A stretch of DNA of 64,000 bases from Limnochordales bacterium (GTDB lineage Bacteria; Bacillota; Limnochordia; Limnochordales; DUMU01). Under the pieces are notes generated by a model. The model was given only the letters and a program-made list of their open reading frames with translations, had not been told where the DNA came from and searched no databases. Within the stretch, counting starts at the first letter, position 1; every line of letters begins with the position of its first letter. The translations under genes were made by a program, and so were the position numbers. Below, piece by piece: positions 23,694-40,936 of this stretch. The stretch spans positions 62,001 through 126,000 of the forward strand of contig JADBKP010000009.1 in NCBI GenBank assembly GCA_014896315.1, written 5' to 3'.

Positions 23694-23961
23694 GTGGGTA
23701 ACAAAACTACCCGGCCCCGGCGAAGGACTGGGTAAAATCATTACCCACTGGCCGTCGGCGAGTGTCGGCTGGCTGCCTCCCGGGGTGCAGCCGGCCCCGG
23801 CCAAGGCACTCGACCTGTGCATTTGTCCGCCCACTGGCCCGGGCGTCCAGGCCGGGGTCACGCCGGCTCGGCCTCTGCAAGGCGTGGGAACGTTCCCATC
23901 AGCGGGGCGGGTAGTTTCTTCACCCACTCCAGCGCACAGAGTGGGTGAAAAAACTACCCGC
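23694..23961 (+). repeat. Structured dispersed repeat, copy A
   Basis: The 5' part pairs GTGGGTAA (23694-23701) with TTACCCAC (23741-23748) around an inner ACCC/GGGT stem and A-rich internal loops. The palindrome TGGGAACGTTCCCA lies at 23885-23898. The 3' part is a hairpin with 23-base arms (23907-23929 and 23939-23961), one mismatch and a 9-base loop. Copies B and C share the order, spacing and conserved blocks. It is intergenic and no open frame explains it. Confidence 0.8.
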
Positions 23962-23981
23962 AGTCTTGGTGGAGTTGGTGC

Positions 23982-24054
23982 GGTTGATGTAGTTGATAGA
24001 GTTGGTGCGGTTGGCATGGTTGGTGGGGTTGGCGTGGTTGCTTTGGTTGGTGTT
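23982..24054. repeat. 9-base GTTGGTGNG tandem repeat
   Basis: About eight or nine diverged 9-base units beginning GTTG follow copy A directly. A frame through them would give a Val/Gly-rich peptide, which is more likely repeat-derived than a gene. Confidence 0.7.
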
Positions 24055-38261: not shown

Positions 38262-38999
38262 CGGCTGGGTGCGCCGTGGCTCAAGCCGTCACTCAAGACG
38301 GGCGCTAAGCGCTATATGGCCCGCAAACAGTTCCCCGAGAACATGAGCCATACCTAGGAGGGCGTCCACAATATGTATAATATGGCATACATTGGCAGAC
38401 ACGTCCAGGGGGGAGGGTGAGGCAGGTACAAAAACTACCCGGCCCCGGCAAACGACCGGGTGAAAAAAGTACCTGCTGGCCGGAAAGGAGTGCCAGCCGG
38501 TTGACTCCCGGGGTGCGGTCGCAACCGGTGCAAGCGCTCAAGCTGGGCGTTTGTAGGCGCTCCCACCCGACCTCCCCGAACCGGAGTCGCCCCGGCTTAA
38601 CCTCGGCGGGTGGTGGGAACGTTCCCACCAACGGGCCGGGTAGTTTTTCTACCTACCCCAGTGCGAAGGCCGGGTATAAATATCACCTGTCGGCCAAGTG
38701 ACCAGTGCACAGACCGCCAAGTGACTGGTGAACAGCCTGCGAGAGGACTGGTTGAGTGCCTGCCAGGTAACTGCAACTGGTCACTGGCTAACAGCAAACC
38801 CTCGGGCTCGGCCAATGGGGCAGGTCAGGAAGCGAGCTCGGCGGCCCTGCGCTGTAGCCTAGCGCCTGCGCCCGCTGATTCCACCTTGCCAAGTGTCCCG
38901 GCCGGGGAGTTGCGGGGTCACAATGCAGGGATCGCCCCCAGTTCGACGGAACAAAGGCGTGGTGCAGGCCAACGGTAGGTAAGCGGCGCGACAACCGGC
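38262..38999. other. Non-coding tract with structured repeat copy B
   Basis: Between the nuclease gene and the ABC remnants. It holds copy B (38422-38694) and then short AGTGACYGGTG-like words (38695-38790). No gene is supported. A TATAAT at 38376-38381 has no -35 partner. Confidence 0.6.
38422..38694 (+). repeat. Structured dispersed repeat, copy B
   Basis: GCAGGTAC (38422-38429) pairs with GTACCTGC (38469-38476), a different sequence from copies A and C but the same stem. A 20-base perfect palindrome TGGTGGGAACGTTCCCACCA lies at 38611-38630. The middle block TCGCAACCGGTGCAAGCGCT (from 38519) is shared with copy C. The 3' hairpin is less regular than in copy A. Confidence 0.8.
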
Positions 39000-39358
39000 G
39001 TGGAGGCAAACGGCGAGATCAGATACGACGGTGTGGATCTAAGAGACTATGACGACAGGAGTGTGTACCAACGAGCGTCGGCTGTATTCCAGGACTACGT
39101 GAAGTATCACTTGACCCTTAGGGAGAACATTGGCTTCGGTGGCGTGGGCGAAATCCATGATGATGGCCGTATCATGCAGGCCATAGAAGAAGTAGAGCTG
39201 GCAAACGTGGTGGCCAAGGTCCCGCAGGGTCTCGATTCACAGCTTGGCAGGGAATTCGGGGGAGCCGAGCTCTCCGGAGGAGAATGGCAAAAAGTGGCCA
39301 TAGCCAGAGACATCATCAACAAAGGTGACGTGGTGGTGTTGGATGAACCCACCGCCTC
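39000..39358 (+). pseudogene. ABC exporter remnant 1 (5'- and 3'-truncated ATPase domain)
   Basis: The frame begins inside a nucleotide-binding domain after the missing Walker A: RYDGVDLRDYDDRSVYQRAS, then FQDYVKYHLTLRENIGFGG, the signature AELSGGEWQKVAIARD and Walker B VVVLDEPTAS, where the homology stops abruptly. The transmembrane part and the first third of the ATPase are absent. Its closest relatives in the window are the two complete exporters at 40937-44811, which share DYxKYxLTxRENIGFG-like and LSGGEWQ blocks. The broken end joins directly to remnant 2, so a deletion fused two transporters. Confidence 0.8.
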
Positions 39359-40288
39359 ACCGGCGACCTTATTGCCTTCGTGGGCTACCTGCCGCGCGCA
39401 TACGCCTCGCTCCGCCTGGTCCTCAGTACCCACGTCGAATTCGAGAGAATAAAAGCAGCCGTGCAAACCATAGATGAACTGCTTTCCTTGCCACAGGAAG
39501 CCCTGTGGTTTGGGAACCTCCCGGTGCCGGCCACGGCCAACAAGCAGACGCGGACACCGGCCGTGGAATTCCGCCACGTCTCCTTTGGCTACGGGAGGGA
39601 TGGTTTCCACCTGGACGACGTCACGTTCACCGTTGAACGGGGGGAATTCCTCGGTATTGTTGGGCCGAGTGGTGCCGGGAAGAGTACGATCTTTGATCTT
39701 CTCCTCGGCTTCTACGTTCCTGCTTCCGGCAGTATCCTGGTGGGCGGGGTGGATATCCGCTCACTATCCCTGGAGGAGTTGCAGCAACAGTTTGCGTTCA
39801 TACCGCAAGACCATCACATCTGGCGAAACTCGCTGGCCTTCAACCTAACCTACCCGCAGCAGGATGTTCACGAGGAGCGAGTATGGCAAGCAGTCAAGAA
39901 TGCCCAGCTGGAAGAGCTGGTGGCATCACTTCCCCGGGGTTTATATACCGAATTGGGTGAACGGGGTGCGAACCTGTCGGGTGGCGAGTGCCAAAGGATT
40001 GCTAGCGCCCGGGCGCTGATACGGCAAGCGCCGATCCTGCTAATGGATGAGGCCACGGCCTCTCTCGACGCCTTGACCGAGCTCCGGCTGCGGAAAGCCC
40101 TAAAAGCTGCAGCGGCCGGCCGGACTTTGATCGTTATAGCCCATCGCCTGGCGACCGTGATGGACGCCGACAGGATTCTTGTGCTGCAGGCGGGACGTGT
40201 GGTCGAATACGGTTCACCGGCTGAACTCTTGCGCCGGTAGGGCCTTTTCTACCAGCTGTATCAGGCTCAGAAGCTGAAAGAGGCGTGA
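39359..40288 (+). pseudogene. ABC exporter remnant 2 (truncated, with premature stop)
   Basis: Starts within the last membrane helix of an exporter (DLIAFVGYLPRAYASLRLV) and continues through a full ATPase domain: Walker A GPSGAGKST, signature NLSGGECQRIASARAL, Walker B ILLMDEATASLD. A TAG at 40238-40240 ends the frame, but the usual C-terminal tail GLFYQLYQAQKLKEA continues in the same frame to TGA at 40286-40288, so the TAG is a nonsense change. Without its membrane domain the product cannot transport. It is of a different exporter subtype from remnant 1. Confidence 0.8.
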
Positions 40289-40936
40289 TCGGGACGTGAA
40301 AGTAAAGCCGGCTTGTGCTATGAGGCGCGAACCAGCTCCGCCAGACCGGAACTCCTACCGCCGGGCCGTGCCATAGCTATGCCCAGGGGGTGAGTAAGGT
40401 GGGTGAAAAAACTACCCGGCCCAGCCGGATGATTGGGTGAAAAAACTACCCACCTACCGTGGATGACAGTTGGGCTTGAGGTCTATCGGAGAGCATCGCA
40501 ACCCGTGCAAGCGCTGTAGCTGGGCGTTAGCATGCAGCCTTGCCGCACCGCCCCGACGACGGTTCACCTCGAACCCGCTTCAGCATGCGTGGGAACGTTC
40601 CCACCACTGGGGTGGGTAACTTTTCGACCCAGCCAACGCCACCGGGTGGGTGAAAAAAACACCTACCCCCGCACCGTCCGCCTGCCCGCCAGCCAGTGTT
40701 AACCAGGCCCGGCCGCGACAGTCGGGCGAGGGAAGAAGGGGAGGCATTGTTGCCTGGATCGATGGTGCCGTACAGGCAGCGTTTTCCCCACGCTTCTAGC
40801 CCATGCATGGAGGAATCCGGCGCGCAAGAGCGAAGAGGCAGACAAGGCGAAAGTGACGCTGGCTCCTCTTGATACTCATAATGCTCACAACCCGGTTGCC
40901 CCCAGTTCTCTGCTGTGCTGATGGGAGTGAAGGCTC
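40289..40936. other. Non-coding tract with structured repeat copy C
   Basis: About 650 bases between the ABC remnants and the intact ABC pair. Copy C fills 40397-40670. The remainder holds nothing I can name; the promoter of the exporter pair must lie in its last part but no clear boxes were found. Confidence 0.6.
40397..40670 (+). repeat. Structured dispersed repeat, copy C
   Basis: AGGTGGGT (40397-40404) pairs with ACCCACCT (40448-40455). GTGGGAACGTTCCCAC lies at 40589-40604, the middle block TCGCAACCCGTGCAAGCGCT starts at 40496, and the 3' arm GGGTGGGTGAAAAAAACACC near 40644 repeats the A-rich hairpin theme. With copy B it flanks the ABC remnants as direct repeats about 2 kb apart. Confidence 0.8.

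Follow-up and report, generated by a model that had tools for sequence, protein, structure and literature searches.

The window, i.e., the whole 64,000-nucleotide stretch of Limnochordales bacterium DNA that was analysed, carries three copies of one element, all on the plus strand: e1 (positions 23696–23959; 264 bp from site 1 to site 4), e2 (38424–38688; 265 bp) and e3 (40401–40664; 264 bp). Each copy contains four 17-bp interrupted palindromes (M sites, RGGT-N9-ACCY, with an A/T-rich centre), which form two pairs, M1/M2 and M3/M4, with a step of exactly 34 bp from start to start within each pair. Between the two pairs lie a box, best written as TAGCTGGGCKTTTGC, which in all of e1–e3 follows M2 at 82 bp, and a near-invariant palindrome P (GTGGGAACGTTCCCAC; core TGGGAACGTTCCCA), located 25 bp before M3. 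The window holds 12 M sites with an A/T-rich centre, all of them in e1–e3 and 12/12 in exact 34-bp pairs. Their cores are invariant in sequence (fixed GG/CC core), and their A-tract has a polarity, the plus strand being A-rich at M1, M2 and M4 and T-rich at M3 in most copies.

Element e1 (model match E = 5.7e-43), whose sites start at 23696, 23730, 23909 and 23943, illustrates this layout. On the plus strand, M1 (GGGTAACAAAACTACCC, 23696–23712) is followed by M2 (GGGTAAAATCATTACCC, 23730–23746) at 34 bp and, 82 bp from M2 (the conserved distance), by a degenerate box (GACCTGTGCATTTGT, 23812–23826; 10/15 matches to TAGCTGGGCKTTTGC). Then come P (GTGGGAACGTTCCCAT, 23884–23899, plus strand), 25 bp before M3, M3 itself (GGGTAGTTTCTTCACCC, 23909–23925), which is on the minus strand (T-rich on the plus strand), and M4 (GGGTGAAAAAACTACCC, 23943–23959, plus strand). 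The sites of e2 start at 38424, 38458, 38638 and 38672, with the box at 38540–38554 and P at 38613–38628, while those of e3 start at 40401, 40435, 40614 and 40648, with the box (TAGCTGGGCGTTAGC) at 40517–40531 and P at 40589–40604. P and the box are degenerate or absent in some copies of the element. Short degenerate GTTGGTG-type repeats are also visible right after e1 (23965–24050).

A preliminary description of this DNA had placed the three copies correctly, and the order, spacing and orientation that it reported are indeed common to all three. The unit it delineated is a real repeat, well beyond what chance would give, albeit an incomplete one: its 3' half holds the second M pair, as well as the P palindrome, and both had been missed.

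Distribution, site classes and constraint

A whole-genome census, which combined pattern searches and model searches, recovered seven copies in the genome of the window (G000; 2.59 Mb, 20 contigs): the three of the window, three others of their class on contig 1 (C1) and, on contig 18, a diverged copy. The recurrence expected from the preliminary description extends both to the rest of the genome and to its relatives. A congener (G001) has about 10 to 14 copies, of which three belong to the window class and several to a second one, and a second genus of the same family (G002) has 11 elements plus one half element. The copies matched in G000 are about 67–74% identical. Across G000, 17/18 strict M matches fall inside elements, while a reversed control pattern gave two matches. 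When 1.1 Mb was scanned for site pairs, these elements came up, plus one weak match and nothing else, and no other motif sharing the 34-bp architecture was found in 1.1 Mb. The exact P core (TGGGAACGTTCCCA) is restricted to six elements within 755 kb; a LacI-family operator would be expected upstream of regulated genes as well, but the exact core is nowhere outside elements in these 755 kb. The full element is absent from the 11 other genomes of the order, the 70 other genomes of the class Limnochordia yielded zero element matches at E 1e-6, and phage and plasmid collections zero matches as well. We found no description of such an element in the literature.

The copies are intergenic, often between convergent gene ends (e.g., e1 and the copies at 114 and 461 kb), and lie beside unrelated genes; no common neighbour gene or gene class was seen near them (simple gene caller, neighbours inspected by eye). 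These scattered neighbours and the frequent convergent gene ends argue against one regulated gene. Orientation relative to the replication strand is not fixed either, with four copies leading and five lagging according to GC skew.

Variant elements of the congener keep the box and the geometry, but their sites read TGGTGC-N5-GCACCA or TGGWGC-N6-GCACCA (6-bp centre). The 34-bp step is common to every four-site element measured, variants included, the sites being 17 to 18 bp long and dyad-symmetric, and within one element all four sites tend to be of one class. These site classes would fit recognition by a putative protein whose specificity differs among classes. The congener also has sets of TGGYGCAAAATGCGCCA sites without a box (L209 on C16, at ~19.8 kb; L210 on C23, at ~135 kb; L212 on C13, at ~31 kb), of which the first consists of four sites with an off-phase gap of 120 bp, and the other two of one pair only. 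Conversely, box-like sequences without recognisable M sites occur in the window's genome and elsewhere (G000:C1:258200, minus strand; 258959, plus strand; L036:10355, minus strand), near GTGAACGTTC-like motifs; those of G000 C1 and L036 are perhaps decayed or further variant elements. Finally, G002 harbours a separate repeat of ~115 bp, the ends of which are inverted (GAGAGCGCT/AGCGCTCTC) and which often sits where a contig ends (L041:3306–3425, L043:9689–9807, L040:9186–9295, ends of L042 and L044); it is likely a MITE (miniature inverted-repeat transposable element) without relation to the four-site element.

Element e1 is kept in place in the congener, and its comparison with the orthologue shows 0/68 changes in site bases, 0/16 in P bases and 8/180 in the other bases of the element (8/264 overall), against 107/457 differing columns in the aligned flanks. 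Such counts show the element to be under constraint and support selection on it. At the position of e2 and e3, the congener has a single hybrid element (L035:13871–14135), of which the 5' part matches e2 and the 3' part e3, while the intervening ~2 kb are absent; homologous recombination between elements is the simple explanation. In the window (38560–40550 compared), these 2 kb include ABC-transporter gene fragments at 39000–40240.

Helical phasing and base pairing

The distance separating the two M pairs varies among elements, though not freely. M2–M3 distances are 135, 148, 156–159, 166–170, 179–180, 221 and 241 bp, M2–box distances 70–71, 80–83, 92–93 and 104 bp, box–P distances about 40, 60–63, 72–73 and 82 bp, and P–M3 distances about 25 and 35 bp. 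For the M2–M3 length classes, the period peaks at 10.5 bp (R = 0.86; p ~0.006; simulation 0.003). Elements found afterwards and held out (M2–M3 of 138, 147, 159, 164, 166, 189 and 201 bp, the 164-bp member being a degenerate copy) keep the phase (V-test p = 0.03), and pooling all distinct M2–M3 lengths, which are not fully independent, gives p ~2e-4 at 10.5 bp, with the signal falling off on either side. These p-values are to be read as moderate, since there are few length classes and these are related by descent. Moreover, M2–box distances alone are fitted as well by a period of 11–12 bp as by 10.5 bp, and the boxless element of the congener with a 120-bp gap, which was excluded from the phase test for its lack of a box, counts against phasing, as does the 164 bp of the degenerate copy. 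Because the spacing moves by whole turns of B-DNA, a complex assembled on the DNA, all on the same face of the helix, is indicated, whereas RNA folding would not require spacing to be quantised at the helical repeat of B-DNA. Altogether, the DNA element is restricted to one family, conserved, strictly built and constrained, and it shows helical phasing.

At face value, the same palindromes could be taken for RNA stems, in line with the structured non-coding RNA (or RNA repeat) that the preliminary description proposed. The inverted repeats that it named are present, RNAalifold redraws the same nested stems from 14 copies, and single copies fold better than shuffled sequences (z = -5.0, -4.5 and -3.6). 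However, this fold energy is explained by the four copies of a palindrome, and the arms of different sites can pair because one palindromic motif is repeated. The claim that both arms had changed together so as to keep pairing did not hold over 36 pair domains, in which the observed pairing does not exceed that obtained after shuffling the partners (p = 0.17 for outer and 0.22 for inner arms, 0.92 and 0.18 within sites); restricting the test to the genus of the window brings the outer arms to p = 0.024, a value that we take as weak. Predicted partner arms pair at 4.2–4.6 of 6 positions and non-partner arms at 3.9–4.8 of 6, so that no partner is favoured, and the covariation term of RNAalifold is -0.01 for the 14 copies. 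With more sequences, no significant covariation thus emerged, an outcome that the preliminary description had itself named as refuting its reading. Selection on RNA or cruciform pairing is left unsupported, and what differs among the three copies is the variation of a small sample about a single palindromic motif, the GG/CC core of which is fixed. In agreement with the earlier remark that no familiar RNA class has these features, Rfam searches gave no match above the gathering score, relaxed thresholds adding sub-threshold hairpin matches only. Considering also the invariant site cores and the spacing at the B-DNA repeat, an RNA is the least probable of the readings examined here. The case serves as an example of how repeated palindromes mimic RNA covariation when just three copies are compared.

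The box at replication origins and comparison with known systems

Exact boxes also occur in two genomes (G013 and G011) of a sister family of the order, between DnaA boxes upstream of rpmH. The dnaA–rpmH stretch is the usual location of the replication origin (oriC). One of these genomes (G013, L178 1500–1620) has two exact boxes 106 bp apart, with a third, variant box midway, hence a spacing of 53 bp (about five helical turns). An alignment of five origins of the sister family shows the exact box in G013 and G011, close variants at the aligned column in G009 and G003, and a weak version in G006. No clear box was seen in the rpmH regions of G000 and G002, which belong to the element-bearing family, and the elements (n = 19) contain 0 matches to the DnaA box TTWTNCACA. 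Because of this lack of DnaA boxes, the link to the origin consists of a shared motif, not of DnaA. The oriC box is the only direct lead for the conjectured role in replication control or chromosome organisation.

Several known systems resemble the element in part. In E. coli, datA, DARS1 and DARS2 consist of clustered DnaA boxes accompanied by IHF/Fis sites, and they occupy a few fixed loci (PMC4585315, PMC4245941). Like them, the element is a short non-coding chromosomal site, here for putative protein complexes, which has a motif in common with oriC; unlike them, it has no DnaA box, it features four copies of an unrelated palindrome and it is present in 7–14 copies per genome. REP/BIME sequences, which usually exceed 100 copies in a genome and have RAYT transposases linked to them (PMC2817692), are likewise palindromic, intergenic and dispersed, and they too are arranged in composite sets with regular spacing, but the elements differ from them by their 7–14 copies per genome, their fixed 34-bp step and the fact that no transposase was recognised beside the copies (neighbours inspected by eye). 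RU/ERIC sequences, which are MITE-like small mobile sequences of 100–300 bp, intergenic and dispersed (PMC2759123, PMC2229807), are similar in size, position and dispersal, yet the elements show neither target duplication nor common termini. At the level of the site, there is a likeness to phage S24/CI-type operator pairs: IMG/VR contigs L047–L052 bear pairs of 17-bp RGGTA..TACCY palindromes with a 17-bp spacer, and some of these pairs lie next to an S24-type repressor gene, with a -35-like TTGAC between their sites. The phage pairs, though, comprise just two sites, placed on either side of a promoter and adjacent to a repressor gene, with no box, P or second phased pair, while an adjacent repressor gene and an overlapping promoter, by which CI/S24 operators are recognised, were not found for the elements, whose spacers are GC-rich.

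Nature of the element

We consider it probable that the palindromes, the box and P form a nucleoprotein element acting at the level of the DNA. The best explanation overall, to which we would give about even chances, is that the repeat, dispersed between the genes of one family of the class Limnochordia, is a nucleoprotein element at the level of the DNA. Briefly, a putative dimeric protein would bind the four M sites, other putative factors would bind the box and P, and, all these parts facing one side of the helix, the two site pairs could bridge into a single complex. More speculatively, this complex might serve a chromosomal task, such as the control of replication initiation or the organisation of the chromosome. 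Such a task is suggested because the box is found in oriC of the sister family, because M sites occur almost only in elements and because the copies are tied to no gene class, but this role remains a tentative assignment, against which weigh the lack of DnaA boxes in the elements, the lack of a clear box at oriC in the element-bearing family itself and an orientation that does not follow the replication strand.

The other DNA-level readings are, in order of probability, a mobile element, an operator and a recombination site. A non-autonomous, MITE-like mobile element, with sites bound by a transposase acting in trans and copies that arose by insertion, would account for the dispersal of the copies, for their variable number across genomes and for the presence of M sites at both ends, as expected of transposase sites. 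Moreover, for the copies at 114, 274 and 461 kb on C1, the flanking genes matched in the congener are not accompanied by an element (flanking synteny is broken at these copies), and two pairs of copies in G002 are close duplicates that take in 60–100 bp of flank. What makes mobility unlikely is that target-site duplication is not above chance over 19 copies (flank repeats of 2.8 bp on average vs. 2.3 in shuffles), that there is no common terminal sequence beyond the sites, that no copy encloses a gene, and that the copies matched in G000 are old yet exact in their site spacing, e1 being kept in place under strong constraint.

Helical phasing is also expected from looped repression, so that the element could be a transcription-control module, in which a repressor pair at each end loops the DNA and controls a neighbour gene in the manner of lac or phage operators. 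The like motif and identical 17-17-17 bp geometry of the phage pairs beside S24-type repressor genes favour this possibility, as does P, which we take to resemble a LacI-family operator. Nevertheless, the copies often lie between convergent gene ends with unrelated genes nearby, no single-pair operator of the M motif exists elsewhere in 1.1 Mb and, unlike in the phage pairs, no promoter-like sequence was seen by eye between the sites; we regard such a module as rather improbable. The general layout is, moreover, reminiscent of attP- or res-like sites, in which pairs of accessory sites surround a central palindrome with helical phasing. The element would then be a recombinase attachment or resolution site, with M as accessory sites and P as core, and the hybrid found in place of e2 and e3 in the congener, without the intervening DNA, would be in keeping with it. 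Yet no recombinase gene was recognised beside the copies, P and the box are degenerate or missing in some of them, and homologous recombination between e2 and e3 accounts for the hybrid, all of which makes this reading very improbable, if somewhat less so than an RNA.

Returning to the nucleoprotein element, its most far-reaching version, which we advance as a rather doubtful proposal, would be a new class of chromosome-control site, i.e., a helically phased platform of four operators, with at least three site specificities in one family, a core box shared with related oriC and a putative, as yet undescribed DNA-binding protein, controlling replication initiation or chromosome folding. The host group consists of little-known compost bacteria. 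If confirmed, the element would represent a strictly built and seemingly undescribed protein-docking element from a part of Bacillota in which cultured members are very few, and its fixed geometry means that the putative binding protein should be directly findable by pull-down. It would also suggest that dispersed chromosomal sites and oriC may be linked in bacteria other than E. coli.
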